This document shows positions 5,808-25,272 of a DNA stretch of 37,971 nucleotides, one piece after another. Each line of letters starts with the position of its first letter. The stretch's first letter is position 1. This DNA comes from a virus. The DNA lies in IMG/VR virus record IMGVR_UViG_3300036832_001028, positions 1 through 37,971 of that record, one strand, 5' to 3'. Under the pieces are notes generated by a model. The model was not told where the DNA came from, ran no database searches, and saw only the letters and a program-made list of their open reading frames with translations. The position numbers and the translations under genes are program-made.

Positions 5808-6070
5808 GACCGGTAGTCCGTGCCGGTGAGCAGCTGGGCGCGCATGTCGCTCAGCAGCTGGGTGCGGATGCCGGTGAGCAGGTCGATCTGGTCGCTGACG
5901 CTGCCCAGCAACCGGTTGGCCTGTGCGGCGGTCAGTGGGTGGCGGGCCAGCAGTTGGCTCTTGTTCAGCAGCAGCCCGCTGATCAGGGCGAAGTCCTGCT
6001 GGATGTGTTCGGCCACCACGTCGGCGTAGTTTTGCTTGCCGGTGACGTGCCCGGCGGTGTTCCCTGTCAT
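5804..6070 (-). CDS. Small helical protein heading the helicase operon (88 aa)
   Basis: This is the first gene after the promoter at 6110-6138. ATG at 6070 has GGGAG six bases upstream. The product is mostly helical: VVAEHIQQDFALISGLLLNK, LTAAQANRLLGSVSDQIDLL and TQLLSDMRAQLL have heptad-like hydrophobic spacing that could give a helical bundle or coiled coil. It has no cysteines and no signal peptide. It overlaps the helicase gene by four bases, so a helicase cofactor or small structural role is possible. It is not recognised as a known family. Confidence 0.78.
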   Translation of the reverse strand: MTGNTAGHVTGKQNYADVVAEHIQQDFALISGLLLNKSQLLARHPLTAAQANRLLGSVSDQIDLLTGIRTQLLSDMRAQLLTGTDYRS

Positions 6071-6109
6071 GAGGTTCTCCCAGTAGTCGGGTGTTCTGTT
6101 GTCCCGGTT

Positions 6110-6138
6110 ACCCTACACAACCTAGAAGGGTGTTTCAA
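6110..6138 (-). promoter_or_regulatory. Promoter of the left (helicase and small-gene) operon
   Basis: On the minus strand, TTGAAA (6138-6133) and TAGGGT (6115-6110) are separated by exactly 17 bases. These match the -35 and -10 boxes of a primary-sigma promoter; TANNNT is a usual actinobacterial -10. The expected start is about 6103, giving a leader of roughly 33 bases with GGGAG before the ATG at 6070. The bases overlapping and following the -10 read GGTAACCGG, resembling half of the palindrome at 6189-6205. Confidence 0.72.
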
Positions 6139-6188
6139 CCCTATCCGCAACCTGGGTTATTCGACCCTGCTGCACTCTTCTTTGTCCC

Positions 6189-6205
6189 CCGGTAACCGTT
6201 ACCGG
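6189..6205. promoter_or_regulatory. 17-base palindrome, possible operator
   Basis: CCGGTAAC and GTTACCGG form perfect 8-base arms around one central base. It lies about 50 bases upstream of the -35 box of the left-operon promoter. A related half-site (GGTAACCGG) overlaps that promoter's -10 box. Perfect short dyads of this type are typical of dimeric repressor operators. Binding is inferred; a short hairpin is the alternative. Confidence 0.45.
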
Positions 6206-6217
6206 CCGTTCTAATAC

Positions 6218-6247
6218 CGCTCACCCTGGGTCATCCCCCGGTGAGCG
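6218..6247. repeat. Inverted repeat in the intergenic region
   Basis: CGCTCACC (6218-6225) and GGTGAGCG (6240-6247) are perfect 8-base arms around a 14-base loop. There is no T tract on either side. It may be a hairpin upstream of the left-operon promoter or a second protein site. It lies in sequence without a convincing gene. Confidence 0.4.
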
Positions 6248-6406
6248 TTCCACCCCCGTGTTCATTGGTGTCCCTCCCCCCTGGACCCCCCTCCGGGCGT
6301 GCTGCACCACCCGCCCGGGCCAACCAAGATCGACTGGCCTCCCCCAGGTCCAGGTCAGGGGGTTGCTGACACCCGAGCCCACCCCCCGGGGGCAGGGGCC
6401 GCGTAC

Positions 6407-6426
6407 GGGCGGGCTTGTACCCGCCC
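6407..6426. repeat. GC-rich hairpin
   Basis: GGGCGGG (6407-6413) and CCCGCCC (6420-6426) pair perfectly over seven G-C pairs around a six-base loop (CTTGTA). No T run follows on either strand. It is one of several hairpins in the intergenic region and may be a terminator or RNA element. Confidence 0.4.
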
Positions 6427-6553
6427 TTGACACTCCCAGTGCGCCCACCCACCCCGCACGCCTACGCCCAAGCCACGGACCGGCACCGTCTGCGGGGGTG
6501 GCGGGCAGCGCCACCTAACGCCTGCCAGGCAAGATGTGGTGACTCAGGAATGG

Positions 6554-6578
6554 GGGCCCGGGTTGCACCACCGGGTCC
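6554..6578. repeat. GC-rich hairpin
   Basis: GGGCCCGG (6554-6561) and CCGGGTCC (6571-6578) form an 8-pair stem with one G-U pair and a nine-base loop. On the minus strand it lies about 30 bases downstream of the stronger hairpin at 6610-6649, so the two could act together as a tandem terminator. Confidence 0.4.
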
Positions 6579-6609
6579 AATGCCATACCCTAGCGGTGCA
6601 CGACTCTTA

Positions 6610-6649
6610 GACCCCCAGGCCAGAGCACCAACTCGAAAGCCTGGGGGTC
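6610..6649 (-). terminator. Probable terminator of the structural/helicase transcript
   Basis: An 11-base perfect stem, GACCCCCAGGC (6610-6620) with GCCTGGGGGTC (6639-6649), surrounds an 18-base loop. It starts about 75 bases past the stop codon of the last gene of the upper operon (6725). There is no downstream T tract, as is often seen for terminators in GC-rich actinophages. Position and stem strength support termination; a structured RNA is the alternative. Confidence 0.55.
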
Positions 6650-6724
6650 AGTGCTGTCCAGGGGTCCGAGGGCCCAAGGAGAGCACCGACCGCGGGTCAG
6701 CCTGCCGCCTGATACGGCCCGCCG

Positions 6725-7114
6725 TCAAGAGGACGGCTTGAACTCCAACAACGCCGGGATGGCATCGTCCAGCATCGCCACCACCGCCGCCCGGGTCAGC
6801 TTGAACGGCGGCACCGCCGCCACCGAGTACGGAGCCTCCGGCTCCGGACCCACGATCTCCAAATACACCCCGACCAGCGGCACCCAGAATTCCCGCTCCT
6901 CGGTCTCCGGGATGTCCTGCTCATCGCTCATGTCCGGCATCGCCTGCATGAACACCGAGAAGACCACCGGCACCTGCGGGAAGCGTTCGGCCAGGATCGA
7001 CTCCACCCAGCCGCGGACCACCGTCACCACCTCAACGTGGCGCTGCCCCGGGCCCAGCATCGACACCGGGTCCGGGCCGTCATGCGGCACCGGCACCACC
7101 CGCGGGCCGCTCAC
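6725..7114 (-). CDS. Unknown acidic protein coupled to the SNF2-like helicase (129 aa)
   Basis: GTG at 7114 overlaps the helicase stop as GTGA. The protein is acidic, with a Pro-rich N-terminus, a helix (VTVVRGWVESILAERFPQV), a beta-like stretch (VPLVGVYLEIVG) separated by an acidic loop (MSDEQDIPETEEREF), and a C-terminal helix (RAAVVAMLDDAIPALL). No family is recognised. It is the last gene before the noncoding region. A six-base-stem hairpin (6721-6737) spans its stop codon. Coupling suggests a partner of the helicase, but that is inference. Confidence 0.72.
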   Translation of the reverse strand: MSGPRVVPVPHDGPDPVSMLGPGQRHVEVVTVVRGWVESILAERFPQVPVVFSVFMQAMPDMSDEQDIPETEEREFWVPLVGVYLEIVGPEPEAPYSVAAVPPFKLTRAAVVAMLDDAIPALLEFKPSS

Positions 7115-8697
7115 GAATCCACCTGCAGCAGCGCCCGCCGGGCACCGGCATGCACATGCCCGATCGCGCCCACGTCACCATGCAGCCGGTCCTGCCACTT
7201 GTTCCGGTCCACCACGGCCCGCACCGTCCCCACCTCGATGGTCTTCTCCGCCACCATGGTGACCCCGTGCACGAACCCGGCACCAGAGGTGATCCGGGTG
7301 CCGCGCCCGAAACGCTGGGTGCGGCCCGCGAAGGTGCGGGCGGACTCGTACTCGATGATGTAGTGCGCCTGCGGCAGGTTCAGTCCCTCACTCCCGGCGT
7401 CGGAGGACAACAACACCTGCGCCACCCCGGAACCGAACGCGGCCAGCGCCTGCGCGTTCTCGGCCACCGACTGGTCCCCGGTGTAGGTGGCCACACTGAA
7501 CCCGGCCTCGCGCAGGTCCCGGGCCAGTTCCGGCAACACGGTGCGGGCGTAGAAGGTGAACACCAGCACCTGCGCGCCCTGCCCGGTGACCAGCGTGGTT
7601 AGCTCCTCCACCAGCCGCTGGCTCTTCGAGGACATGATCGCCCGCAGGCCCGCCTCCCCCATCGCCGCCACGATCGTCTTGGACAGTTGCGAGTCGGAGT
7701 GCAGGTGTGCCGCCGGATGGGCCGCAGTCAGGCGCAGCGCCATGTTCAGCTTCTGCTCCTGTTCCAGGGTCAACTCGCTGACCTCGGAGCCGTACAACTC
7801 GCTGACGCCCTTGTACAGCGACGCGTGCTCCGGCTCTAGGGTCACCACCAGCAGCCGCTCCACCAGTTTCGGCATCACCGAGGCCACGTCCGGGTCGGTG
7901 TAACGCTTGCGGTAGATCAACGGCTGGAACGCGGTGGCGAACCACTCCCGGGCCCCCGCCTTGTACAAGTACCGGCCGTAGTCATCGCGGCCCCGGGTGC
8001 AGCGCTCCTCGAAGACGGCCACCGTCGGCATCCGGGTCGGGGCCACCACCCGGCCGATGTTGAAGGGCTGCTCGTAGTCGACCGACATCGGGGTCGCGGA
8101 CAGCCCCAGCACCCGCTGGGCATGCGGGCCGCGGCGCAGCTGGGTCAACAGGTACTCATAGGACTGGTACAACTCGCTGCCCCGGTTACCGAGACGGGCC
8201 ACCTCATCGAAGAGCCACAGCACCCGCTTGCTGCGCAGCCCCAACGCCTCCACCAGCGGCCCGTCGGTGCGGGACCCCTTGCCCCGCTGCCCGGGTTTAC
8301 GGACCCGGCGCATCAGATCCGCGCGGCCCGTCTCGTAGGTGGTCAACAGCACATCCGGCACCCCGTCACGGGCCAGCCGCTTCTCCCGGCCAGTGCCGTG
8401 GTAGACCGCCACCCGCAGGCTGGTGAACTGCGCCCAGTCGGCCGGGAACTCGGTCCGGGCGATCTTGTTGCGGCGCGCGATGTGCATCACCAGGTCGACC
8501 GCATCGGCCTCGAACAGTTCCGCCGCCAGGGCCATCGAGACCACCGTCTTGCCGAGCCCGGTGTCCAGCACCCCGACCAGCCCCGGGGTGTAGAAGGCGG
8601 TGGCGACCGCCTCGGCCTGGAACCCGAACAGCCCCAGCGGCGAGTAGAACAGGTGCCCGTTCGGCATCACCCAACGGTCGGTGATGCCTTCGCTCAT
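7111..8697 (-). CDS. SNF2-like superfamily 2 helicase/translocase (528 aa)
   Basis: An ATP-dependent DNA helicase or translocase. ATG at 8697 overlaps the previous stop (ATGA); the longer frame upstream is a shadow. Motifs: Walker A DTGLGKT (residues 45-51); DVLLTTYET (115-123, motif Ia/Ib region); DEVA (164-167) in place of DEAH; GLSATP (198-203); and a second lobe with VLVFTFYARTVLPEL, SSDAGSEGLNLP (motif V) and QRFGRGTRI (motif VI). The motif V wording is SNF2-like. No extra nuclease domain is seen. It sits between two unknown genes behind the tail-fibre gene, unusual for a replication helicase. A role in replication or in countering host defence is open. Confidence 0.9.
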   Translation of the reverse strand: MSEGITDRWVMPNGHLFYSPLGLFGFQAEAVATAFYTPGLVGVLDTGLGKTVVSMALAAELFEADAVDLVMHIARRNKIARTEFPADWAQFTSLRVAVYHGTGREKRLARDGVPDVLLTTYETGRADLMRRVRKPGQRGKGSRTDGPLVEALGLRSKRVLWLFDEVARLGNRGSELYQSYEYLLTQLRRGPHAQRVLGLSATPMSVDYEQPFNIGRVVAPTRMPTVAVFEERCTRGRDDYGRYLYKAGAREWFATAFQPLIYRKRYTDPDVASVMPKLVERLLVVTLEPEHASLYKGVSELYGSEVSELTLEQEQKLNMALRLTAAHPAAHLHSDSQLSKTIVAAMGEAGLRAIMSSKSQRLVEELTTLVTGQGAQVLVFTFYARTVLPELARDLREAGFSVATYTGDQSVAENAQALAAFGSGVAQVLLSSDAGSEGLNLPQAHYIIEYESARTFAGRTQRFGRGTRITSGAGFVHGVTMVAEKTIEVGTVRAVVDRNKWQDRLHGDVGAIGHVHAGARRALLQVDS

Positions 8698-9002
8698 GCG
8701 TGCGCCGTCTCCACCTGCGGACCGGCCAGCACCCACTCCACACAGAAGTTGCCTGCGGTGGGCACGCTCACCGGCATCGAGGACACCGGGTTGCCGCGGC
8801 AGTGCAGGTACAGCTGCTCGGTCGGCTCGGCAGGGGGCCGCTCGAAGTAACCCAAGAAGATCACCCGGTGCGGGGTGCGGACCTTCACCGCGTCCACCGT
8901 CAGGTCCCCGGCCTCGATCTGCCACGGCCCCCGGTCGTGCACGGCCCGTTCCAGCAGCCGGGCACGGGCCACGGCGCTGGCGGCGATGAAATCAAGTGTC
9001 AC
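8694..9002 (-). CDS. Unknown protein heading the helicase unit (102 aa)
   Basis: GTG at 9002 is chosen because AGGAG lies about ten bases upstream (9013-9017), whereas the longer frame has no site. The product starts MTLDFIAASAVARARLLERA (helix), then has a beta-rich centre (VRTPHRVIFLGYFERP, EQLYLHC) and ends with EWVLAGPQVETAHA. Two cysteines are far apart. It overlaps the helicase gene by four bases. No family is recognised. Conserved coupling would make it a candidate partner of the helicase. Confidence 0.74.
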   Translation of the reverse strand: MTLDFIAASAVARARLLERAVHDRGPWQIEAGDLTVDAVKVRTPHRVIFLGYFERPPAEPTEQLYLHCRGNPVSSMPVSVPTAGNFCVEWVLAGPQVETAHA

Positions 9003-9160: not shown

Positions 9161-12100
9161 CTACGTTTTGACCAGGAAAGTGATCCCCAGGTAGGGCGGC
9201 AGGCCCGCTGCTGCCCCCACGTCATCGGTGTTGCCGTCCAACAACGCGCCCAACGTGCGAGAGATGCTGCTGGCCTGGGTGGCGCTACCCCCGAAAGCGG
9301 AATGCGTTGACTGCCAGGCCGAGGCGGTGACCATGTTGGCGTCGATGTGGTTGTCCACGTTGTTGATCCGGATCTGCGCGTACGGGGTCCGCTGAGCGCC
9401 CAGCCCGTGGTAGTGGCTGGCCGCCCCACCGGTCAAGCCCGGTGTCACCCCGTAGGGGAACACGCTGCGGAAATCCGGCACGTTGAACGTGGTGGACCCG
9501 TCCCCGGCCCCGAAGTTGTAGAAGGTGTAGGTGCCGGAGTTGGCGGTCACCGCGGCAGTCAACGTCACCGAAGTGCTGGTGACCGAGGCGATGGTGTTGA
9601 TGCCGGTGATGCCCGGCCCGGTGACCTGCATGCCGACATAGAGGTTCCCGGTGGCGGACAACCCGGAGATGACCTTGCTGGTGGCCAGCGTGCCGCTGTA
9701 CTGCTGGATGCAGGTCGCGTACAGACCCGCGTAGGTGGACCGCGACACCGCACCCCCGGTGGCGAACAGCCAGCCCGCGGGCGGGGTGCCGGTGCGCAGC
9801 CCGCAGAACATCGTGATCGCGCCCGGCGGCAACCCACCGGAAGGAGTGTTCCAACCCACGTCGTAGTTGGTCGCGGTGTTCTTGGTCAACACCGTCCCGG
9901 CCGCCCCACCGGTCGGCACCCCGGCCCCGGTCGGGCCTGCGGGCCCGGCCACCCCCGCCGGTCCGAGGTTGCCCTGCGGGCCGGTCGGGCCTGGCGCACC
10001 CGTCGCCCCGGTCGCCCCGTTCGGTCCCGGCGGCCCCGGCACCCCCTGCGCCCCGGCCGCCCCGGTGCTACCGGTCGAACCCGGCAGCCCCTGCGGGCCG
10101 ACCACCCCCTGCGCACCTGGCACCCCCTGCGCTCCGACCGGCCCCTGCGGACCGACCGGCCCGGCCGGTCCGGTGGCTCCCGGCGCACCAGCCGGACCGA
10201 CCGGGATGGACGGGGTGGCTTGCAGGTAGGCATAGGTCGGGGTGAGCGTGATCCCGGAATCCTGATAGACGTAGAGCGAATAGTTCACCGCCGCGGTCAG
10301 CTGCTGGAACAACGCCGTCCCGTTGGCGTAGGTCGGCGAAGCCGAACTCCCCGGGCTCACGCTGACATACAGCGAGGAATGCACCCCGGGACCGGCACTG
10401 CCCCGCCCGGCCGGGCCGACCCCGCACATCCGCCGCCCGCCTGCCGCACCAGGCCAACCCACCGACTGAGGCAGGTCGTACCAGCCGGTCACGGTCGGCC
10501 GTAGATAGTGCCCGGTCGCATCAACCGGCACCGTCCCGGCGAAGGCGACCGTCGCGTTGGTGACCTCCACCCAGGTCCCGGTGGTGACCGCGGCGATGCT
10601 GGTGGAACCCAGCTGGGTAGCGTTCGAGACGGTCGGCGGCGGCGGTTGCCAGTTGGCGGCGAAGTCGCTGGCACTGGTCTTGACCAGGATCGAGCCGGTC
10701 GCACCGCCCGGCGGCACCCCCACCCCGGCAGCCCCCACGGCACCTGCCGGACCGACCGGCCCGGTCGCACCCGACGCCCCGGCATTGCCTTGCGGACCGG
10801 TGGAACCGGCCAGACCGGCTAACCCCGGGGTGCCTTGCGGGCCCGCTGGGCCAGTGGCCCCGACCGGTCCCACGGTGCCCTGCGCCCCGGCGGGTCCTGA
10901 CGGGCCTGCCGGTCCGATCGGTCCGGTCGGCCCGCTCGGTCCTGCGGGTCCACCGGACGGTCCGGTCGCACCGACCGGACCCTGCGGGCCAGGCGGGCCG
11001 CCGGGGGTACCGGCCGGGCCGGGAATCCCCTGCGTGCCCTGCTGCCCGGCCGGACCGATCAAACCGGTGGGGCCGGTCGGTCCGGGAACACCCTGCGGGC
11101 CCGCCGGGCCGAGGGCCCCGGTCAACCCGGTCGCACCGGTCGCGCCTCGCGCCCCCAACGGGCCCTGCACCCCAGGAGCACCCTGCGGGCCCGATGCCCC
11201 TAACGGCCCGGCAGGCCCGGTAGCCCCGGCTGGACCAGGGACGGTGGAGGCTGCGCCGGTAGGACCGGCAGGTCCTTGTATCCCGGTGGGTCCGGCCGAA
11301 CCGGCCGAACCGGCGGGGCCGATGGGCCCCTGCGCTCCGGTGGCACCGGCAGCCCCGACCGGCCCTTGCAGGCCGGTGGCTCCCTGCGGGCCGGGACTGC
11401 CGGTCGTTCCGACGGCTCCCGCCGGACCTACCCCGCCTTGCGGACCGGTGGGTCCGGCCAGACCGGTGGGTCCGATCGGTCCGGCCGGGCCGCGGATCAA
11501 GCCGCTGTCGGTCCAGGCAGCCCCGGTCCAGGTCCACAGGTGCCCGGTGTCGGTGGCGATGTAGCCGTCACCGACGGTGTTGCCGGTGGTGGGCAGGTTC
11601 GCCGAGGTCGCCACCTGCCCCTTGATCGCCACGCTGGAACCGGCTGCCCCGGCCGGGCCGGTCTGACCGGCAGGTCCGGCTGGCCCGGTCGGACCCTGGA
11701 TCCCCGTCGCACCGGCCGGGCCGATGGGGCCGCTGCTGCCCGGTACCCCGGCCGATCCTTGCGGGCCTTGCGGCCCTGTCGGGCCGGGTGCGCCCTGCGG
11801 CCCGACAGGACCCGTCGAGTTCAGCCAGGCCACGTCCCGATCCCCGGCGTCCAGTTTGGTCAGCACCTGCCCGGTCGCCCCGCCGGGTGGGATGCCGACG
11901 ATGCTGCCGGACTGGGTGGTCAGCCACTGATCCAAGGCCAAGGTGGTCTGGGAGGCCGGGTTGGTGACCAGCGCGGCGCTGTCCTGATCCAGTTTGGAAC
12001 GCTGCTCCCAGCCCGCGTTGAGCGCGGCGCTGGTCGCGCTGGCACCGCTGACCAGGCCCGCCACCGTCGGGTCCAGGCTGGCTGCTGGGGGAGCCGGGAC

Positions 12101-12619
12101 GGTGGCCGGGTTCATCGCCACCACCGGGTTCTGCGGGTCGGTGTTGTCCACCGTGATCCCGGTGCCTTCGGTCACCGAATGCACCAGGTTGCCGGTGTCC
12201 AGCCCGGTCGGGATCTCCACCCAGGCCGCCGTGTTCGGGTCGGTGGTCTGCAACATCGCCCCGGTGAACGCGGCGTTGCTGATCACCAGCGGGTTAGTGG
12301 CGGCCAGCAGCTGTTCCGCGTTGGGCGGCACCGGCAGCCAGTCGGAGACGGTGGTGTGCCCGGCATAGTTGGTGACCACCGCGACCGTGGTGGCCTGCGG
12401 CAGGTAGACGTCTAGGATCCCGTCGTCCACCACGAAGGGGTTCTCCACCGCGGTGGTCAACGCCTCGTCGGCGTAGACCTGCATACCGATCAGGACGTCG
12501 GTGGTGCCGGGCTGGCACAAGGTGACCGTCGCACCGATCAGGAGGTTGCCTGCCGAATCCTGCAACACCCGGTACAGGTGGCATGCCATCGGGAGGGTGG
12601 GGGGCGCAGTGATTGTCAC
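9161..12619 (-). CDS. Collagen-repeat tail fibre with tail-collar tip (1152 aa)
   Basis: A probable receptor-binding fibre. I chose GTG at 12619; GTG at 12664 lies inside the upstream gene and ATG at 12589 lacks a ribosome-binding site. Order of parts: an N-terminal attachment region (about 1-255); three Gly-X-Y collagen-like stretches (about 270-329, 377-634 and 807-900); between the second and third, a beta-sandwich resembling C1q (near 680-800, [12 protein letters not shown]); and a C-terminal phage tail-collar domain starting GAITMFCG and containing [19 protein letters not shown] and [15 protein letters not shown]. Three linkers share the pattern GG-x-x-G-x-[VI]-L-x-K followed by a Trp about 15 residues on. 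The collar carries an unusual insertion. It is the last structural gene. Confidence 0.9.
9920..10201 (-). repeat. Collagen-like Gly-X-Y segment 3
   Basis: About 94 residues of Gly-X-Y triplets (for example [19 protein letters not shown]), mostly uninterrupted, joining the C1q-like domain to the collar tip. It should form a trimeric triple helix. In DNA it appears as a nine-base periodic GC-rich repeat. Confidence 0.85.
10718..11491 (-). repeat. Collagen-like Gly-X-Y segment 2
   Basis: About 258 residues of Gly-X-Y, the longest stretch. Interruptions are minor (such as GAASTVPGP and GTPGGPPGP). It is the main shaft of the fibre. The coding repeats are imperfect, so expansion or loss of triplets by recombination is likely. 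Confidence 0.85.
11633..11812 (-). repeat. Collagen-like Gly-X-Y segment 1
   Basis: About 60 residues of Gly-X-Y. It is followed by a short non-collagen module ([17 protein letters not shown]) that reads like a small beta repeat found in fibre proteins, and then by segment 2. Confidence 0.85.
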
Positions 12620-12632
12620 ACTACTTTGCTGG

Positions 12633-15600
12633 CTAGCTGCCGTCCTCCACCACGATGTTCTCACCCAGGTATGGGGTCAGCTGCGGCAACGGGGTGACCT
12701 GGTCCAGGTCACGGAAGGCGAACCACCACTGCCGCGGGATCGGCGAATGCCATACCTGCCAGCGTGGGTCGACCTCGATGGGCGGGTAATGGTCCCACGG
12801 GTTGATGTTCGGGCCGTGCAGTGAGCCGCGGGGCCGCACCGGCACCGAGTGCATGAACCCGACGTACCAGGGCCGCACCGCCAGGTGGCTGACCCACGCG
12901 CCGGGCGCGAACGCGGTGACCCGGTAACGCAGCGTGTTGCCCGCAGGCTGGCCCTGCGGGTCGTAGGCGTCGTTGACGTGGCCGAAGCTCACCACCCCGT
13001 TCGGGTCGTTGCGCACGTCCCAGCCCGGCACCCAGCTGGACCCGGCGTCGTTGGAGAACTCCCACAGGATCGGGTCCACGAACAGCGACAGGGTGTCCAT
13101 GTACCAGGCGTCGTCGCTGGCCCCCTTCTGCATGCAACGCACGTACACGTCATCCATCACCTGATCGGCGTGATGGGCCAGATCGCCCCAGAGGGCGGTC
13201 TCATACCGATCCACGTCACCCCAGGTGTTGGACCCGGTGCCTGCACTGACCCCGTTCGCGTTCGGTGACCAGGCGAAGCCGGACAAGGTGCTGACGTTCC
13301 CGGCCCCGTCGGCCACCCCCAGCAACGCCCGGCCCGTCCCGGTGATCAGGTTGTTGTCGGCGTACACACCGACCACCGCATCATCGAGCAGGAACACCAG
13401 CGTCTGCACCTTGCCGGTGTTCGGGATGTTGTAGGTGGTCTTGAACGCGGTGGACAGGGTGAGCGTGCTGGTGAACAGGACGGACAGGTCCCCGCCCGTG
13501 ACGTCGGGCACCATCATGCCCAGTTCGACCAGCGGGGTGGTGGTGTTGGCCGGGTCCAGTGAGACCAGCATCCCGTCGGCGCGCAGCAGTATCAGCCGTC
13601 CCGTCGAAGAGCGGTCCAGCTGCGCCAGGTAGTAGTCGGTCGGGTCGATGCTGACCGGGTCCGGCAGTGAGTCGACCCGGAAGGTGAGCGTGCCGTACAG
13701 GTCGGTGCTGGTGGACACCGAGGAATTGGTGGGCGGGATCTGGTTGGTGATGTCGAAGACGGTGGTGATGTTGGTGGGGCTGCCCAGGGTGGGGTCCCCG
13801 GCGCTGAAGTCGACGTTGACCACCGACCAGACCCGCCCGTCGTCGTTGTTGGTCCAGTTGCGGTGCGCGGCGTCCCATGTTCCTTCCTCCGGGCCGGGTA
13901 CTTCATAGATCACGGTGCCGGTCGGAACGGCGCTGGTGTCCGGCACCCAGTTCATCGACACGAAGCTCTGCCCGAGATCTCCGGCCAACCCGATGACCCC
14001 ACCCAACGCGCGGGGGGTGGTCAGCACCCCGCCGGGCACGGTGGTCCCGTTGCGGGTCACTGTCACCGCCCAGGACTGCACGCTGGCGTCCGCCCCGGTC
14101 GGGACGCTGGCCAGCTGCATGGTGGGTCGGTAGGCGAAGGACAGGTAGTCGCCGTCGGTCAGCCCGTTGATGGTCAGCATCACCCGCCCGGTGTTGGTGT
14201 CCACCAGCCGCCCGTCGTTGAACAGCACCAGAATGCCCAGGTACAGCAGCGGCACGCTGGATGCGGTGTCCACGGCGCTGACCATGTTGTCGATGCCCAC
14301 CGTGAAGGTGCCCCACGGGGTACCGGGGTCGAACGTGGAAACCTGCCCGGCCGCGGTGACGGTCGCGGTGCCGTTGGACAGTCCCAGCGAGGTGCCCAGG
14401 GTGGTCCACACCTGCCCGGAGTCCATCTGCCCCAGGCTGGTGGCGTCCTCGCGGCTGAAGCTGTCCAGGAAGCCGGGGGTCTGGTTCGCATCCCCGGCCA
14501 GGTCACCCCAGGTGTTGCCTTCGGTCGGTCCGGTCCCGATCGGGGTGCCGACATACCATTCGGTGACCTGGTTGGCCCGCACCGTGGCCGGGGCCTCGGC
14601 CAGCACGTGATCGTTGACGGCATCCAGGATCTGTAGGTACAGCGGCTCGCCCAGGTCCTCGGTGGCGATCACCCGGGCTGCCGCGTAGAGCCGCCCACCG
14701 GACGGTGGGGTGACCGTGCTGGAAGCTATCCCGCCTTTCGAGTCGGAATGCCCGACCCGGTATTTCAGGTCGCCGTAGGTGACTTGCGCGGCTTCCAGGT
14801 CTGCCCAGGTGGGGTAGTTCGGGGCGATGTCGCCCCAGAACCCGAACCGGCGCTGCCGGATCAGCGGCATCAGCGTGCCGAAGACATCCGAACTGACCAG
14901 GTCCCCGTTCACTTCGATGTCGCCGACCAAGGTCCAGTTGGCGAAGGTCGGGTCACTGAACTCGTCGTCGGGCAGCTGCTGCACCGGCTGGGACTGCTGG
15001 GCGGCGAACTGCAAGCCGCGGATCAGCCGGTAGGAGCGGAACGTGTTCGAGGTGGCCTGCGCCCAGCCGCGGTCCAGGGAGACCAACGCCTCGTAGGCGT
15101 CGTTGTAGTAGAACGTGCAGTTGTCCAGGTTCTGCTCATCGAAGAACATGTCCTCGTACATGTCGGTGTCGGCGACCGTGTTGAACAGCTGGCGGCCGAA
15201 GATCAGCTGCCGCAACCCCACCTGGTAGGCGATCTTGGTGCTGCGGGTGACGTTCTCGGTGGCATAGATGTGCTTGCTGATGTTGGTGAAGCGCGGCGCG
15301 GACAACCCGGAATGCCACTGCTGGTAGGCCCAGTCCACCCCCTGGTCGGCGCGGATACGCTGCGCGGTGGTGTAGTCCGGGGCCACGTAGGTCTCGGTGT
15401 TGGTGTAGCCGGTGCCGGTGCCCCCGGTGGACACGTACAGCGGGAAGTCCGAGTACGGGGAGTAGCCGATCTGGTCGGCCAGCACATCCTGGCCCAGGTC
15501 GGAGGCCGGTTCGGTGCCGGTGTACTGGGCCAGCCAGGCGGCAACCATCTCCGGCGGGAAACGCTGCACCCGCTGTACGCCGGTCACGAAGATGTCGTGG

Positions 15601-17330: not shown

Positions 17331-18601
17331 CCGCCCACCTGCCCGGCCGCGTACGGGTAGGTGGTCAGCACCCCTTCCGCGCCGGAACGCAGCACCGCCG
17401 CCCGACGCGGCTCCTGCACCGCATCCTGGGGCAGGTAGTCCTTGCTGGTGCCGTCAGTGAAGATGACCGTCTGATAGTCGGTGCCGCTGGTCCGCTTGCC
17501 GTCCACCATCCGGTAGGAGGAGGCCCGCGCCATCCGCGAGTTGTAGGCCCACATCTCGCCCCGGTACTCACCGAAGCCGGGCCGGGCCGCTTCCACCATC
17601 GTCTGGTTCTGGTACAGGCTCAGGCCCAGGTCGTCCAGCCCCTGGTACTGGGCCACCGTGGAGACCACCGCCCAGTCGTTGGAGTCGGAGTAGTAGAAAC
17701 GCGGTGGGCGCACCACCCAGCCGTTCTCCCCGGCCACGTTGTTGACGTTGACGACCACCCCGGCCGGGGCCAGCGTGGCCAGCACGTTGTAGACCTGCAA
17801 CCGCTCGTCTTCCCCGATGGTCTTCCGCGGGGTGATCGCCACCTCGCCGCGGTTGCCCAACGGCAACCCGGTGGAGGTGATCTTCTCCCCGCCGACCAGC
17901 CCGCCCCAGGTGCGGCCCTTCATCGAACCCCAGGTGGGGAACTTGGTGCGCACCGCGAACCAGGTGTTGGAGAACAGGGTGCTGGACCGTCCGCCGGGCG
18001 GCATCAGGTCCGCCCAGATCCACGACTCGACCAGATCCACCTCGCAACCCAGCACCGCCTCCGCCGCGGTCTTGACCCCGGCGTAGGTGGCCCCCAGGTT
18101 GAAGCCGCGGCCCAACTGGAAGATCCGCGACCGGTACCGCCCGTCCCGGCTGGCCGCCGCGGCCCAACTCCCCGAATCCAGCACCGCGGTGGCGGGGTTG
18201 AAGCGGCCCTTGCCGGGCAGCCGCTCGACGGCTAGCCGCGGGCTGGCGAACAATGCCCCCCAGAACCCGTCCAGGTCCAGGAAGTGGGTGCCGGAGACGG
18301 TGTGCGACATCCGGCGGATGGTCTGCTGGCGGCGCAGCCCGCCGATCCCGGCCGCGTTCAGCAGCGCGGACAGGAACCGGGCCAGGTGCGAGTCGCGGTA
18401 CATCCGGTACAGGCCCGGGTCGAAGTTGGCGGCCCGCAGCGCCAGCGTCACGTCCGGCACCAGCGGGTCGGTGACGCTGGTCAGCCCCTGTATCTGCGGA
18501 CCGGTCGGGTCCATCTGGTAGGAGATCAGGTCATCCAGCTGGCCGTTCTGGGTGTAGAAGAACGGCAGCTGGTCACCGGCATTGCGGGCCGGGCTGCTCA
18601 T
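17327..18601 (-). CDS. Putative baseplate wedge protein (424 aa)
   Basis: ATG at 18601 overlaps the previous stop by one base (TGATG). It directly follows the J-like wedge gene, the position of P2 gpI-type or T4 wedge proteins. The N-terminal region holds a helical segment (YRMYRDSHLARFLSALLNAAG), a common feature of tail protein I-like proteins. The rest is beta-rich with many Trp and Tyr. No enzyme motif is found. The call relies mainly on gene order. Confidence 0.62.
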   Translation of the reverse strand: MSSPARNAGDQLPFFYTQNGQLDDLISYQMDPTGPQIQGLTSVTDPLVPDVTLALRAANFDPGLYRMYRDSHLARFLSALLNAAGIGGLRRQQTIRRMSHTVSGTHFLDLDGFWGALFASPRLAVERLPGKGRFNPATAVLDSGSWAAAASRDGRYRSRIFQLGRGFNLGATYAGVKTAAEAVLGCEVDLVESWIWADLMPPGGRSSTLFSNTWFAVRTKFPTWGSMKGRTWGGLVGGEKITSTGLPLGNRGEVAITPRKTIGEDERLQVYNVLATLAPAGVVVNVNNVAGENGWVVRPPRFYYSDSNDWAVVSTVAQYQGLDDLGLSLYQNQTMVEAARPGFGEYRGEMWAYNSRMARASSYRMVDGKRTSGTDYQTVIFTDGTSKDYLPQDAVQEPRRAAVLRSGAEGVLTTYPYAAGQVGG

Positions 18602-20517
18602 CAGGAGGTCCCAAACGTGTTGCGGGCCTTGACGTACTTGACCGCCGAGTCGAAGACCGGGTAGCTGGCGTCATCGAAGTAGATGTCCTTGGCCCGGCCA
18701 CCGGTCTGGATGATCGGGCCGGGCAGCGAGGTCTGGTCCGGGTCCGGGTTCGGGTACATCTGCTGGATGCCGTAGCCGCTGCCGTTCTCCGGGTCGTTGA
18801 GGGTGACGAAGCGGACGTTGTCCACCCCGGCCACGTTGTGCACCGTTTGCAGCACGTCGGAGACCTGCAACGCCGAGTCGAAACCTAGGTTGTTGACCAG
18901 GTCCACCAGCGCCAGGTCGATGGTGTCGTTGACCGTGGCCGGGTTCGAACCGACCGTGTACACCAGGTACAGGTAGAAGCGGTAGAGCTTGGCCAGCCCG
19001 GCATGCACTTGCAGGTCGGTGCCCAACAGCCGCCACTGCCCCTCGACGGTGGACTGCACCTGCTGCGGCACGTAGTTGTAGGTGTAGACGATGGTCAACG
19101 CGGTGCCGTTGGCGGGCGTCTTGGCGGCAGCCCGCGGGTCGGCGGGACTCTGTCCGGCGTAGTTGGACGGGGTGTACCAGATCAGCCCGAAGGAACTGGT
19201 CGGGGTCATCCCGAACGCGTCCATCTGGTAGATCAGGTCGTAGTCCACCCCGGCGGTGTAGTTGGGCAGCGTGCCCGGGTCCAGCTGTAGCGGCGGGCCG
19301 TGCAGCAGCGGCTGGAAGACATCCCCGGCTTTGGGCGCGACCCCCGCGGCGGTGGCGAACCGGTCGGTGCACAGCGGGTCGTTGTGCACCGAGTTGAACT
19401 TCCAGGTGCTGGTGTTGGAGAAGATGCCGGACTGGGTGGCCGTCTTGACGATCATCCCGTTGCACCACAGGTCGATCCGGTTGGAGATGTAGGCGTACGG
19501 CGAACCCCACCGGGTGCCGAACGGGTCGTTGCGGGAGTACTTGGACACGTAGTCGAAGCGCAGGTTGTACACCCCGCCCTCGGTCAACCCGGAGTTGACG
19601 CTGTTCACAATCAGGGTGGCGCTGGCCGGGTAGACCGGGCTGTTGTTGATGGTGACGGTGTAGTGCGCGCCGGGGGTCAGCAGCGGGGTGTCTGCCTCCG
19701 GGGCCGGGTCGTCCGGGTCCGGTATCGCTTGCAGGAACACCGACTGCGGGTAGATGTAGGCCGCGTCGTGGATCTGCGAGGTGAAGCTGCCGTTGGCGAT
19801 CTGGCCCTGTTCCCGCCAGGTCAGCCGCGGCCCGATCACGTTGACGTTGGTCACCGCCCGGGAGTTCGTATCCGTCGGGTCGGCGGTGGTCTGCAAGGCC
19901 AGCGCCCGGTACATGTGCTGGGTGCCTGCGATGTTGCGGAACACGGTGGACTTGAACCGGGCACGCAGGTGCGCGTCGGTTTCTGAGGTGGCCCCGCCGA
20001 TCAGCGCCTGCGCGTTGTAGGCGCGGGTCACCGCGGTCAGCTGGCTGGCGATCTGGGTCAGCGTCCCGGCCGCCACGTTGCCGTCCGGGCCGTAATTGAG
20101 TGCCTGCACCGGAGCGTCCCCGGCGGGTTGGCCCTTGCTCAGCAACGTGTTCGCCATCACCTGCACGTACACCGTCGGGTCGGAGGAGGTGACCACCTGG
20201 GCTCCCAGCGGCACCCGGCCCTCGGCGGCGTTCGCGGTGGCCTGGGTGCGGGAGAAGGTGACCGTGCCGGTGGCTCGTTGGCCCTGCAAGCGGGCCATCC
20301 CGAACAGCGCCACGAAATCGTCCAGGTCACCCCCGGCCTTGGAGTCGATGTCGTAGGCGTAGGTGATCAGGTGGCTGTCGTTGGCATGCTCGGCGATGCC
20401 GCCCGCCACCGCGTCGATGATTTTGCGGGCGATCGAGCCGATGGTGGTGTCCAGGGTCGGCTCGGTCAGCGACAGCGCGGCCACCATGTTGGCGGCGATC
20501 TCGGCCTGGGTGGGCAT
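18601..20517 (-). CDS. Baseplate J/gp47-like wedge protein (638 aa)
   Basis: ATG at 20517 abuts the previous stop (TAG then ATG). Residues 80-125 have the pattern of the baseplate J family: ATGTVTFSRTQATANAAEG, then PLGAQVVTSSDPTVYVQ. A helical segment (SETDAHLRARFKSTVFRN) follows the core region, as in other family members. The protein is longer than P2 gpJ, with a large beta-rich C-terminal part. It follows the gp25-like gene, the expected order for a contractile baseplate wedge. Confidence 0.86.
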   Translation of the reverse strand: MPTQAEIAANMVAALSLTEPTLDTTIGSIARKIIDAVAGGIAEHANDSHLITYAYDIDSKAGGDLDDFVALFGMARLQGQRATGTVTFSRTQATANAAEGRVPLGAQVVTSSDPTVYVQVMANTLLSKGQPAGDAPVQALNYGPDGNVAAGTLTQIASQLTAVTRAYNAQALIGGATSETDAHLRARFKSTVFRNIAGTQHMYRALALQTTADPTDTNSRAVTNVNVIGPRLTWREQGQIANGSFTSQIHDAAYIYPQSVFLQAIPDPDDPAPEADTPLLTPGAHYTVTINNSPVYPASATLIVNSVNSGLTEGGVYNLRFDYVSKYSRNDPFGTRWGSPYAYISNRIDLWCNGMIVKTATQSGIFSNTSTWKFNSVHNDPLCTDRFATAAGVAPKAGDVFQPLLHGPPLQLDPGTLPNYTAGVDYDLIYQMDAFGMTPTSSFGLIWYTPSNYAGQSPADPRAAAKTPANGTALTIVYTYNYVPQQVQSTVEGQWRLLGTDLQVHAGLAKLYRFYLYLVYTVGSNPATVNDTIDLALVDLVNNLGFDSALQVSDVLQTVHNVAGVDNVRFVTLNDPENGSGYGIQQMYPNPDPDQTSLPGPIIQTGGRAKDIYFDDASYPVFDSAVKYVKARNTFGTS

Positions 20518-20946
20518 CTATGCCGTCACCTGCCGGGTCACCGAGATGCTCTGCCCGGCCAGCGTGGTGAGCGTGGCGTTGACCTGCAAAGTGTCCTGCG
20601 TCGGCGTCGCGTTGATCGTCTCAATCTTGCTGACCACCTCGCCCGCGCCGTACATGCCGCGCTGGTTCAGCGCCCCGGCCTTGTTGATCTGGTCGGCCTG
20701 CACCGCGATGTAGTTGTTCAGCACCCGTTGCACCTCCGAGAGCACCGCGGAGTGGGTGCCGGGCAGCATCGGCTGGCCGATGAAGCGGTCCAGCACCGAA
20801 CCCCACTGCGGGTGGTAGGGGTCCGCGCCGTAGTTCTCGTTCAGCGCGAAGAACAGGTCCTGGCTGACCTTGGCCGGGCCGTGGATGGTCATCAGGTCCC
20901 CGGCGGAGAGCACCAGGTCGCCGTTGACGATGGCCAGCGTCTGCAT
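20518..20946 (-). CDS. gp25-like baseplate wedge protein (142 aa)
   Basis: ATG at 20946 has GGAGG eight bases upstream. The sequence (LVLSAGDLMTIHGPAKVSQD, then DPYHPQWGSVLDRFIGQP) matches the GPW/gp25 pattern, in which a conserved Gly/Pro-rich loop and a following helix initiate sheath attachment. The length is typical. It is followed at once by the J-like gene. It is separated from the upstream EEP-domain gene by 88 bases that contain a perfect 16-base palindrome. Confidence 0.8.
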   Translation of the reverse strand: MQTLAIVNGDLVLSAGDLMTIHGPAKVSQDLFFALNENYGADPYHPQWGSVLDRFIGQPMLPGTHSAVLSEVQRVLNNYIAVQADQINKAGALNQRGMYGAGEVVSKIETINATPTQDTLQVNATLTTLAGQSISVTRQVTA

Positions 20947-21001
20947 GTTGTCTCGCCTCCAAGCACACCCCGGAACCTTCTCTACTTCAGTGCCTGGGGC
21001 C

Positions 21002-21017
21002 CGGGCTGCGCAGCCCG
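21002..21017. repeat. Perfect 16-base palindrome in an 88-base gap
   Basis: CGGGCTGCGCAGCCCG is fully self-complementary. It lies 18 bases past the EEP gene stop and about 55 bases before the gp25-like start. It could form an RNA hairpin that attenuates transcription within the structural operon, or be a protein site. No T run follows. Confidence 0.42.
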
Positions 21018-21034
21018 ATCCGGCCCGCCGTGGG

Positions 21035-22516
21035 TCAGGTCTGCCGGAACAGGATCTGCACGGCCCATGCCGCATGCCCGTCGATGTTCAGGACGATCTT
21101 GTCCACGGCCAGTTTGGTGATGGTCACGTCGGGGTTGTTGGGCTGCACCCCGATGACGTAGTCCAACACGCCGTGGACGTACCGCTCCTCGTTGGGGTGG
21201 ATCTTGGGCAGGTGCGGGTTGTTGGTGTCGGAGGTGAAGATGACGGTGTGCCCGGTGCTGACCAGGTCGGCCACTATCTGGGTCAGCTTGTCCCACCATT
21301 CGTTCCACCAGATGCGGCGCAGCGACTCGACCCGCTGCCCGGGGTGGGTGAATGCCCCGTTCACCGGGTGGCTGTCGACATGTGAGTACTGGATCCCGGT
21401 GGTCTGGTGCACCAAGGTGGTGACCCCGATGTACCGGGCCGGGGTGACGTGCGCCATGCCCGGATGGGCGAAGTAGGAGACATGCTTGGCGATCCGCCAG
21501 GTGGGCGGCACCGCGACCGGCTCGTACTTGGTGGGGTTGTCGTGCGCGAACTGATAGGTCGAAGGGAAGGCGGCCACCATCGCGGCCCACTCGTCGCCGG
21601 TATCGCCTTCGTCTATCTCCTGGAACCCCCAGATCGCGTTGGTGTGTGAATCGGCCACGTTGTTGATCGACTGCACCCGGGCGGCGTAGGTCTTGTCCCG
21701 GCCGATGTTGCAGGTACCCACCCAGTTGGTGACGGTGGCGTGCCCGCCCGGATCGGTTTGACCGCCGTCGGTGCCGCCGCCGCTGTCGGTGCTGGTGCCG
21801 CTGACCACTATGCCGCGCGCGGTGAGTTTGACCACCCGGGTGCCGAAGTAGGCGGTCAGATCCGGTGTCGGGTTGGCCCGGAACCGGATCCCGTCCAGGG
21901 AAAGGTTGATGCCGGACCCGGCTACCGCCCGCACGTACCCGTCCGGGCGGACCATGACCGTCCCTGTCCCGTCATCCTCGGCCACTACGAACCGCAGCAG
22001 GCCGTCCGTCGAGGGGTAGCAGCTGTCGTCCAGCTGGAAGATGTCCGAACTGACCGGCCCGGGCTGCCCGCTGTTGGCGACCGGGCCGGTGCCGGTGCCG
22101 CGCAACGTCACCCAGCCCATCGCGTCCTTGCAGTAACTGATCAGCGGGTAGGTGCCGCTGGTCGGAGTCCAGGTGGCGATGGGCGGGTCGAGGTCGAGGG
22201 CGGGATCGGCCACGGAGGTGTTCACCCAGTCGCCCAGCAGGTCCGGGTACTGCCATTCGACGGCGTCGATACCCAGGTAGCCGAGCGGGATCAGGAACGT
22301 CCAGCTGCTGCCGGTGACCTGGTCCAGGATCCACGTCTCACCCGGCTGCGGGGACGCGGACTTGCCGCGCAGCATGTCGGTGCGCACCTGGATCACCCGG
22401 TTGCCGGTGGTCAGCCGCACGGTGGCTACCACCCCGTCGATCCCCATCACCTTCCCGACCTGGGTTTCGGGTCGGGTGGTGCCGCGGTCCTGGTTGCGGG
22501 AGGAGGAGACGCTCAA
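21035..22516 (-). CDS. Tail/spike protein with C-terminal EEP (nuclease/phosphodiesterase) domain (493 aa)
   Basis: I chose TTG at 22516, which makes a TTGA overlap with the hub stop; the longer frame is a shadow of the hub gene. Residues 15-80 (including GNRVIQVRTDMLRGK) could be an OB-fold as in tail spikes. Residues 262-493 match the endonuclease/exonuclease/phosphatase superfamily, with all key positions seen: Asn270 (TCNIG), Glu300 (FQEID), a His-rich strand (SHVDSHPVNG, 378-387), Asp430 and Asn432 (TSDTNN), Asp452 (LDYVIG), and Asp479/His481 (DGHAAW). Known members are Mg-dependent nucleases, lipid phosphatases or sphingomyelinases. Between hub and wedge genes, it is probably virion-associated. 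Substrate unknown. Confidence 0.86.
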   Translation of the reverse strand: MSVSSSRNQDRGTTRPETQVGKVMGIDGVVATVRLTTGNRVIQVRTDMLRGKSASPQPGETWILDQVTGSSWTFLIPLGYLGIDAVEWQYPDLLGDWVNTSVADPALDLDPPIATWTPTSGTYPLISYCKDAMGWVTLRGTGTGPVANSGQPGPVSSDIFQLDDSCYPSTDGLLRFVVAEDDGTGTVMVRPDGYVRAVAGSGINLSLDGIRFRANPTPDLTAYFGTRVVKLTARGIVVSGTSTDSGGGTDGGQTDPGGHATVTNWVGTCNIGRDKTYAARVQSINNVADSHTNAIWGFQEIDEGDTGDEWAAMVAAFPSTYQFAHDNPTKYEPVAVPPTWRIAKHVSYFAHPGMAHVTPARYIGVTTLVHQTTGIQYSHVDSHPVNGAFTHPGQRVESLRRIWWNEWWDKLTQIVADLVSTGHTVIFTSDTNNPHLPKIHPNEERYVHGVLDYVIGVQPNNPDVTITKLAVDKIVLNIDGHAAWAVQILFRQT

Positions 22517-25272
22517 ATGATCCGCCGCCCGCCGGTCGGGCCCGGAGTCGATGCTGCCTTCCTCGGCTGCTTGGTCTTGGTCTGCGGGATTTTCGGCTTG
22601 TTCGGGGTGCGGGCCGTCTGCTGGTCCGAAGCGGGGGCGTTGTCCAACACGCCGCGCCCGCCCTCGGGCAGCAGGGACAGCATGTTGCCCTTGTTCTTGT
22701 CGCCGATCACCGCCGGGGCGCACACCTCCACGGTGGTGGTGAACGCGCCGCCGGGGCCGTAGGAGCCGGTGTGCGTGACCCCCTGCACGTAGCACTGGAA
22801 CCCGTAGTCGGGGATCTTCAGCAGCATCCCCGGGAACACCTCGGGCATGAAGGTGAGCGGGATGGTGGCGGTGAACTGCCCGGCCCAGTTCTTCATGAAC
22901 TGGTAGATCGCCATGTAGAACTCGTTCCTGCCACGGGCGATCTGCGGCATCTGGATCATGTTCGGCCGGGCCCCGAAACGTTGCAGGAACGAGTTGACCC
23001 AGCGGCTGTCCGCCTTCGCCCCGTAGATCGCCTCGAAGATCTCCGGGTAGTCCATGGTGGCCACCCCGGAGGAGCCCAGCGCCAGGCTGACCAGGTCGGT
23101 GGCCACCTCGGAGGTGTAGTCCAGCGAGCCGGTGTCCTGGTCCAGGCTGGTCACCCCCGAATTGCCGAGCACGAACTGGTGAGTGACGATCTGCTGGTCG
23201 GACCAGGTCACCTGGAAGTCCTGCAATTCGATCGGCTCGATGTTGATCGCGCCCATCTGCGAGAAGTTGCCGAAGTAGTCCGGGAACCAGGCGATGAAGT
23301 CGCCGTTGGGGGCCGAGCAGAAGCTGCGCAGCGAGGAGTTGATCAGAGTTTGCAGCCAGGGCAGGAACGGCTGGTCATTGATCATCGCGACCGGCCCGAC
23401 CAGCGACTCGCCGACCTGGTTGATGTCCGCGTTGAACGAGATCGAGTTGATCAGCGCCTCAAAGGCGGCGTTGGTGTCGGAGGAGGCGGTGCCGCCCGTA
23501 CCGGACGGGGCGGTGGCCCCTTTTATGTCGACCTGCGGCCCGACCCGGGTAGGTGACTTGATTATCTTGGCCAGCTGGTCGGCGGCAGCCTGGGTGGTGC
23601 CCGAGGCGGCGTAGTCGATGCCGGGCAGCAGCCCGGCCGAGTCGAACCCGCCACCGGAGTCGATGGGGTCGTAGGTGGCTTCCTTGTAGTGGTCGGGGTA
23701 GGGCTGGTGGTCGGCCACCTCGTAGTTGTTGCCGATGGACATGCCGACGTGGTGTGCACCGGCCCCGCCAATGAACATCACCGCGCCCTGCACGTGCCGG
23801 GCCAGGGGCAGCGGGATGATGTGCGAGCAGAGCGCGTAGATCTCGGCCGCGGTGGGTTTGCCCGTGCCCAGCTTCTTGCCGGTGGCGTTGTAGTAGACCC
23901 AGTCCACCAACGACGAGCAGTCCAACCGCTGCACCGTGGCCATCGGCGTGTCGTAACGGTCCCAGTTGTTGTCGACCCACAGGATCGGCGGGTTGGGTTT
24001 CTGGTGCGCGTTGATCAGCGCCACCGCGGTGGAAGCCAACGACGCGCCCGGGGTCTTGCCGGTGTTGCCGGGGGTGGTGGTGATCGACGGGCTGCCGGTG
24101 GTCGGGTCGGAGCCGGGTGCGGCAGTGGCCAGTTTGCCCGCCGACTTCACCAGCGACTTCGCGACGTCCAGGAACTTCTGGTACTCCCCTCCCGAGGAGA
24201 CCTGCACCACCTGAACCCAGTAGCCGTACTGGGACTCGGCGATGGAATCCGGGTTCTTGATGTTGTGTTTCTTCAGCACCGTCATCAGCCCGTCACCGCC
24301 CTGCCCGCGGGCTGAATTGAGGAACAGGTTGGTGGCGCTGGTCGGGTCCATCCGCTGTGCGACCGAGCCCCAGCCGTCCTGCTGCTGGAACAGCCCGCAG
24401 GAGGTGTTGCCCGGCGAGCCCGGGTCGGTGCCGGAGCCCTCGGTGGAGTACTGCTGGGAACCGGGCACGTTCGGGCTCCACAGGTTGTGCAGGGTCGACT
24501 CGTCCCGGGCGCACATTAACGCCATGGTCGCTACCGCATCCGAGGAACTGACCGCCTTGCACGCGGCGTAGATCAGCCCGGCGTTCTTGACCTGGACCGT
24601 GGACAGTGTCTCCGGCCCGTACTTGCCTGCCGGGATGTCCACCGCGACGTTGGAGGCCGTCCCGCTGATCACGTAGCCGAGCCCGATCTGCTCGTAGACG
24701 GCCAGGTCCTTGTTCTCGTCCTTGATGATCGGGTCGATCAGCGTGGCCCAGGTATTCGGCACCTCCCCGATGTGGATCTTCGGGATGGGCCAGTTGGCCA
24801 CCTTGCTCAACATCGTGGAGATCATCGAGGACAGGCCCTTGTCGCCCAGGGTGGACCCGGCCGCGCCGACCTTGGACTGAGACCCGGACGGGAACTTCTT
24901 CATCGCGTCCAGCATCAGCTGCTGCGCCTGGATGGTGGTCGGGTCCCAGTACAGGTACTGCAAGCGTTTCAGGGTGCAGGAGGCGGAGATGTTCAGCACC
25001 CCAGGCCAGGCTTGGAAGATCGGCCCGGAGTTGATGTAGCCGGTGAAGTTGTGCAGCCAGTTGATCCGTTTCAGGCCGACCGTGATCCGGTCCATCGGCA
25101 GGATCAGGCCGTCGTACTTGCGCAGGTTGTTCTGCAACTCGAAGGTGAAGGTATGCGGCGCGTTCTCGCGCAGCATCAGCTGCCAGCTGACCAGGTCATC
25201 AGAGATGTCCAGGATGCCCTTCGCGGTCTCCACGTGGCAGGAGATCTGCGGAGAGTAGATCAAGGTGGCCAT
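22513..25272 (-). CDS. Baseplate hub with lytic-transglycosylase-like and NlpC/P60 domains (919 aa)
   Basis: ATG at 25272 lies three bases after the previous stop. Residues 1-230 look like a tail hub (ENAPHTFTFELQNNLRKYDG, LPMDRITVGLKR). Residues 235-380 resemble a soluble lytic transglycosylase/lysozyme fold, with Glu258 in ALMCARDESTL and a CGLFQQQ motif near 292-298. A Ser/Thr/Pro/Gly linker (about 385-412) leads to an NlpC/P60 peptidase (about 415-555): Cys452 in RLDCSSLVDWVYY, and His507/His508 in GAGAHHVGMSIG. Hub-like sequence resumes from about 605 to the end. The two enzymes would cut peptidoglycan glycan and peptide bonds during DNA entry. Both hydrolases are inserted inside one hub polypeptide. 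Confidence 0.9.
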   Translation of the reverse strand: MATLIYSPQISCHVETAKGILDISDDLVSWQLMLRENAPHTFTFELQNNLRKYDGLILPMDRITVGLKRINWLHNFTGYINSGPIFQAWPGVLNISASCTLKRLQYLYWDPTTIQAQQLMLDAMKKFPSGSQSKVGAAGSTLGDKGLSSMISTMLSKVANWPIPKIHIGEVPNTWATLIDPIIKDENKDLAVYEQIGLGYVISGTASNVAVDIPAGKYGPETLSTVQVKNAGLIYAACKAVSSSDAVATMALMCARDESTLHNLWSPNVPGSQQYSTEGSGTDPGSPGNTSCGLFQQQDGWGSVAQRMDPTSATNLFLNSARGQGGDGLMTVLKKHNIKNPDSIAESQYGYWVQVVQVSSGGEYQKFLDVAKSLVKSAGKLATAAPGSDPTTGSPSITTTPGNTGKTPGASLASTAVALINAHQKPNPPILWVDNNWDRYDTPMATVQRLDCSSLVDWVYYNATGKKLGTGKPTAAEIYALCSHIIPLPLARHVQGAVMFIGGAGAHHVGMSIGNNYEVADHQPYPDHYKEATYDPIDSGGGFDSAGLLPGIDYAASGTTQAAADQLAKIIKSPTRVGPQVDIKGATAPSGTGGTASSDTNAAFEALINSISFNADINQVGESLVGPVAMINDQPFLPWLQTLINSSLRSFCSAPNGDFIAWFPDYFGNFSQMGAINIEPIELQDFQVTWSDQQIVTHQFVLGNSGVTSLDQDTGSLDYTSEVATDLVSLALGSSGVATMDYPEIFEAIYGAKADSRWVNSFLQRFGARPNMIQMPQIARGRNEFYMAIYQFMKNWAGQFTATIPLTFMPEVFPGMLLKIPDYGFQCYVQGVTHTGSYGPGGAFTTTVEVCAPAVIGDKNKGNMLSLLPEGGRGVLDNAPASDQQTARTPNKPKIPQTKTKQPRKAASTPGPTGGRRII

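Follow-up and report, generated by a model that had tools for sequence, protein, structure and literature searches.

Organization of the baseplate locus

The window, that is, the whole stretch of 37,971 nucleotides of the IMG/VR viral record IMGVR_UViG_3300036832_001028 that was analyzed computationally, contains a series of minus-strand tail genes, in which a gene for a 493-aa protein (hereafter the EEP-tail gene) lies between the genes for the hub and a gp25-like protein:

22513..25272, minus strand: hub, 919 aa, matching phrog_2810 (E = 3.5e-103)
21035..22516, minus strand: EEP-tail gene, 493 aa, encoding an OB-like N-terminus, a beta-rich middle and an EEP C-terminus
20518..21075, minus strand: gp25-like sheath initiator/baseplate protein, matching phrog_2669 (E = 1.3e-23) and Sheath_initiator (E = 0.02)
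18601..20517, minus strand: gpJ-like baseplate wedge protein, matching Pfam Baseplate_J (E = 4.9e-20) and phrog_6 (E = 7.2e-42)

A phrog_2813/DUF7297 protein is also encoded downstream of the EEP-tail gene, and a tail sheath gene is found further upstream of the hub. This gene content, including the tail sheath, identifies the locus as the baseplate module of a contractile-tailed phage. The position between the hub and the gp25-like wedge, proposed in the initial annotation from the sequence, is confirmed by the phrog_2810 and phrog_2669 matches on either side. Two other loci (L003 and L002) keep the order hub, counterpart of the EEP-tail gene, gp25, gpJ, as does the Bxz1 group apart from extra small genes, and this order agrees with the arrangement of phrog_2952-type genes (hub, minor tail gene, an optional small gene, gp25, gpJ). 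The hub is 28–30% identical to those of phages LinStu, Myrna and Skog. Sequence comparison suggests an actinobacterial, high-GC host; the phage records matched by the hub all come from phages of actinobacterial genera (235/235).

The hub has an NlpC/P60-like region with a DCSS motif at residues 451–454, in which D451, C452 and S453, together with H508/H522, are invariant in six homologues, and a lysozyme/transglycosylase-like region with matches to phrog_700 (endolysin) and phrog_10030 at residues ~209–398. Two cell-wall enzymes are thus apparently united within one baseplate protein, and with these regions the tail tip probably attacks peptidoglycan. The gp25 ORF, as called, overlaps the EEP-tail gene by 41 bases. 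Since its family match starts at residue 47, translation probably begins ~40 codons further downstream, perhaps at a rare start codon. Elsewhere among the tail genes, positions 9161–12664 (minus strand), which are locally GC-rich (0.75), encode a tail fibre of 1167 aa with collagen repeats in seven stretches (Pfam Collagen, E = 3.5e-46). Two helicase genes follow directly after the tail genes (3744–8925, minus strand), one of the SNF2/DEAD type (7111–8925) and one of the Helicase_C_2 type (3744–5807).

The initial annotation had placed the gene at 21035–22516, correctly, leaving the strand unstated. The plus frame contains stops, whereas the minus frame is open over 493 codons. The gene begins with a TTG codon, and its TTGA overlaps the stop codon of the hub gene. 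GC content at third codon positions is 0.94 for the OB-coding part, 0.92 for the EEP-coding part and 0.93 for the hub gene, and ranges over 0.91–0.94 across the OB, middle and EEP parts, close to the values of the neighbours; this uniformity argues for one real, single coding gene. A chimeric assembly is unlikely, given the uniform third-position GC, the single open frame and the existence of relatives with the same N-terminus and neighbours.

Domain architecture and module exchange

The protein is divided as follows:

22277..22471, minus strand: OB-like barrel, residues ~16–80 (predicted model; homology to the phrog_2952 N-terminus via the bridging homologue L031)
21812..22231, minus strand: beta-rich domain, residues ~96–235 (shares 49% identity with the final part of the L003 homologue, which has no EEP)
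21731..21799, minus strand: Gly/Thr/Ser-rich linker, residues ~240–262 (from sequence)
21038..21730, minus strand: EEP (DNase I-like) domain, residues 263–493 (from alignment and predicted fold)

An OB-like N-terminus, one of the options raised initially, finds moderate-confidence support for residues ~16–80 (local pLDDT about 60–80, within an AlphaFold2 model of the N-terminal part with an overall pLDDT of 44.3). This barrel resembles IF-1/IF5A (Z 9–10), and gp5/VgrG chains are absent among the matches listed for it. The beta-rich middle appears fibre- or head-like by eye, its fold prediction not being confident. No relatives of the N-terminus were detected in the genome-contig scan. The first ~80 residues are 50% identical to the product of the corresponding L003 gene and 63% identical (over 54 residues) to that of L002. 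The protein has no direct match to phrog_2952, which is matched by the N-termini of the hub-adjacent proteins of LinStu, Myrna and Skog. Homology with this N-terminal domain is established through L031 (blastp E = 8e-11 between the window protein and L031, and 1.5e-10 between L031 and Myrna). With this bridge, hhalign scored 28.3 against a maximum of 17.3 in 100 shuffles, whereas without it the match was weak.

The proteins sharing this N-terminus differ in what follows it. The L003 homologue (233 aa from its second start) ends after the beta-rich domain and has no EEP domain, and the L031 homologue has a different C-terminus devoid of EEP motifs. The same hub-adjacent gene in L002 (L002:8565–10454) encodes an unrelated C-terminus of ~500 aa matching phrog_7032 (tail fibre), which may be another enzyme. 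The Bxz1-group minor tail proteins (LinStu gp135, Myrna gp133 and Skog gp187) occupy the same place directly after the hub and share the homologous OB-like N-terminus via L031, but have fibre-like C-termini and no EEP domain, and an extra Gly-rich minor tail gene precedes gp25 in these phages. LinStu and Myrna have a common fibre end; the Skog protein is 1100 aa long. Such differing C-termini behind one N-terminus indicate that the EEP domain was swapped in as one of several interchangeable ends of a tail-tip protein.

Identification of the EEP domain

Searches of the EEP domain against Pfam, NCBIfam, PHROGs and PDB sequences produced no identifying match, and PF03372 (curated cut-off 24.5 bits) did not match the window even at E = 10. 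The domain is therefore assigned to the EEP superfamily by fold and residues and not by PF03372, and the evidence for it comes from relatives and structure. With tblastn, Streptomyces phages yielded stand-alone genes annotated as 'phosphoesterase' (E = 5e-9 to 2e-6; 27–28% identity), and an IMG/VR contig encodes a 228-aa relative (29%, E = 2e-13). Chained searches further led to Yosif gp5 and to L020. No relatives were found in the genome-contig or plasmid scans. The closest annotated sequence relatives (about 20–29% identity) are the 'phosphoesterases' of BillNye and Circinus (Stanwilliamsviridae) and Yosif gp5, which differ from the window protein in being stand-alone proteins of 224–232 aa, in having non-tail gene neighbourhoods and in retaining an intact SDH motif.

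The C-terminal catalytic-type positions are listed below; invariance refers to A7, an alignment of the window EEP domain with four phage relatives (five sequences), which are 19–29% identical to the window protein:

21707..21709, minus strand: N270, Asn of EEP motif 1, invariant
21617..21619, minus strand: E300 (FQEI), metal-binding Glu position, invariant
21368..21370, minus strand: H383 (DSH), His of the NTH motif, invariant
21221..21229, minus strand: D430-x-N432 (SDTN), GDxN motif, D430 and N432 invariant
21161..21163, minus strand: D452 (LDY), (I/L)D motif, invariant
21074..21082, minus strand: D479-G480-H481, counterpart of SDH in which a single residue separates D from H, D479 and H481 invariant

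All residues named in the initial annotation are present, and its Glu and Asp/His positions are not replaced in the relatives. Eight positions (N270, E300, H383, D430, N432, D452, D479 and H481) are invariant across the five sequences, all but D479 making up the superfamily order N, E, H, D-x-N, D, H, and at 19–29% identity such a pattern is not expected by chance. H379 is located in the same strand as H383. The description of the site as complete and canonical holds for the eight positions but not for the last motif, which is D-G-H instead of a contiguous S-D-H: DGH is found in the window protein and L001, DFH in L020, and SDH in the BillNye and Yosif proteins. The substitution of D-x-H for S-D-H could weaken catalysis.

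Structure prediction supports the EEP fold anticipated for the C-terminal part. AlphaFold2 run without templates produced a confident model of residues 263–493 (pLDDT 86.6, pTM 0.88) with the four-layer alpha/beta sandwich of EEP enzymes. Foldseek searches with this model matched 129 PDB chains at E<=1e-3, the best being Tdp2 (1.1e-10), and the 50 of these 129 that were listed are all EEP enzymes. In structure comparison, the predicted model also matches Yosif gp5 (TMq 0.81). Superfamily members such as Tdp2, neutral sphingomyelinase, Bt3783 and Nocturnin share the predicted fold over about 200–220 aligned residues (rmsd 2.4–3.3 Å) and the motif order N, E, H, DxN, D, H, but the window domain differs from them in its low identity (~8–15%), the D-x-H motif, the lack of a PF03372 match and the fusion to a phage tail protein. 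Taken together, the predicted fold and the site have nearly all the certainty that sequence analysis can provide.

EEP domains on other phage tails

EEP domains at the C-termini of tail proteins are already represented by CR44b gp17, which consists of a T7 tail-fibre N-terminus, Tail_spike_N and PF03372, and whose record notes mass-spectrometry matches. Other annotated tail-fibre or tail-protein EEPs are those of CR8 (like CR44b, a Citrobacter phage), Escherichia phage BEK2, Cronobacter phage B1 and Salmonella phage Se-J, with further relatives in CrRp3 and Proteus PM 116. Four loci with EEPs on annotated tail fibres or tail proteins (L021:7463–8923, L023:1691–3208, L024:2949–4220 and L026:1763–3226) belong to unrelated Gram-negative phages (Studiervirinae, Drexlerviridae and Kuttervirus). 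The CR44b/CR8, Cronobacter B1 and BEK2 fibres resemble the window protein in the C-terminal location of the domain, and their PF03372-type EEPs align with it collinearly, motif to motif (hhalign score 39.7, where 200 column shuffles reached 30.1 at most). This match was obtained with family alignments; comparing A7 with the CR44b EEP sequence alone was unsuccessful. However, CR44b has a T7 gp17-type N-terminus, whereas the carrier in the window is a hub-adjacent OB protein, and the fibre EEPs constitute a separate sequence lineage that is detectable by PF03372 (as shown for CR44b) and has recorded Gram-negative hosts. No paper on EEP domains of phage tails was found in the part of the literature that our searches covered. 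The occurrence of such domains in CR44b/CR8 gp17 and other proteins lowers the novelty of the present case. What is new is the hub-adjacent OB carrier in an actinophage-like myovirus, a divergent lineage missed by the libraries, the D-x-H motif and the series of swaps at one locus.

Possible functions of the EEP-tail protein

The product would be a structural component of the tail tip, at the baseplate centre, and by its N-terminus and gene position an orthologue of the Bxz1-group minor tail protein (phrog_2952). Its OB-like barrel would lie next to the hub, followed by the beta-rich domain and then by the EEP domain on a flexible Gly-rich linker, as exchangeable cargo. At the cell surface, the metal-binding Glu, the Asp/Asn pair and two His would hydrolyse a surface phosphodiester, the candidate substrates being teichoic-acid-type or phosphoglycan polymers, or a lipid, of the actinobacterial envelope. 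During penetration, the EEP domain would thereby supplement the hub's own peptidoglycan-lysin domains. The presence of a putative phosphodiesterase one gene away from a lysin-type hub fits an attack on a second envelope bond. We give a probability of roughly 0.52 to this reading, in which the protein is a virion-borne phosphodiesterase that acts on an actinobacterial envelope polymer or lipid from the tail tip of a myovirus. The initial suggestion of a virion-borne enzyme is borne out as regards the EEP fold, the catalytic residues and the tail-protein setting; presence in the virion, catalytic activity, the envelope substrate and the timing of action are what we infer.

In L020, the stand-alone EEP gene (L020:3549–4262) has a 4-base overlap with the end of a gene for an M15 D-Ala-D-Ala carboxypeptidase and is itself followed by a gene for a TM protein, and in L001 the EEP gene (L001:825–1493) is followed by genes for a 'cell wall-associated hydrolase' homologue and a TM protein. 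Thus, two of the four stand-alone relatives are located in lysis-type cassettes, where the enzyme may serve as an accessory lysis enzyme, and the gene-order evidence for a link to lysis comes from these two loci only. The EEP genes of BillNye and Yosif have no lysis cassette around them and are located next to tRNA genes or the terminase. An analogous case is provided by GDPD phosphodiesterases from tail modules of enterococcal phages, which were proposed to cut wall teichoic acids (PMC10194240). As GDPD represents another fold, the analogy is functional only.

Against an envelope substrate stands the fact that the closest solved structures are those of Tdp2, a DNA enzyme (VIA-align Z = 22.7). 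Together with the weak match of Yosif gp5 to the exodeoxyribonuclease III model TIGR00633 (E = 0.0011, collinear over residues 3–166), this is consistent with a virion-borne nuclease, which would cut extracellular DNA near the host, or host DNA or RNA after entering the cell together with the tail tip. Yet nuclease, lipid and glycan-phosphate EEPs are nearly tied in Foldseek and VIA-align scores (neutral sphingomyelinase, 21.5; mannosyl-6-phosphatase Bt3783, 20.4), so that similarity of the predicted fold cannot separate DNA, RNA, glycan-phosphate and lipid substrates. In addition, two stand-alone relatives reside in the lysis-type cassettes, and a free enzyme at the site of DNA exit could presumably harm the phage's own genome. 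We therefore regard a nuclease as unlikely.

A role similar to that of phospholipase C or sphingomyelinase, in which phospholipid head groups or glycolipids would be cut to ease the passage of the tail through the membrane, is somewhat less probable still. It would agree with the tail-tip position, the similarity to human neutral sphingomyelinase over 222 residues and an aromatic-rich helix segment (RRIWWNEWW). However, the W-rich helix is also present in the stand-alone relatives, which have no known membrane role, no membrane-insertion hairpin was identified, and a fold score by itself does not give the substrate. Finally, enzyme folds are often put to use as binding domains in phage tails, and the replacement of S-D-H by D-x-H might point to an inactive EEP-derived domain for receptor recognition, but this is improbable, because the retention of eight catalytic-type positions in five relatives at 19–29% identity is hard to explain without catalysis. 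A phosphodiesterase directed at the actinobacterial envelope thus remains the preferred reading.

Implications

A broader scenario, which we put forward tentatively and consider doubtful, is that tail-tip EEPs of phages form a class of envelope depolymerases that cut phosphodiesters of cell-wall glycopolymers and were recruited repeatedly onto unrelated tail proteins (hub-adjacent proteins of actinophages, T7-like fibres and other tail proteins of Gram-negative phages) and, as stand-alone enzymes, into lysis cassettes. In that case, a single fold would be used for entry as well as for exit. An entire lineage of phage EEP proteins escapes Pfam, NCBIfam and PHROGs. Should the domain be active, the enzyme repertoire at the tail tip of actinobacterial myoviruses would gain an EEP phosphodiesterase, which would offer a direct route to learning which phosphodiester of the actinobacterial envelope the phage must cut. 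The hub-adjacent gene acts as an attachment point for enzymes or fibres that can be exchanged, which is useful for studies of host-range biology and for enzyme discovery.
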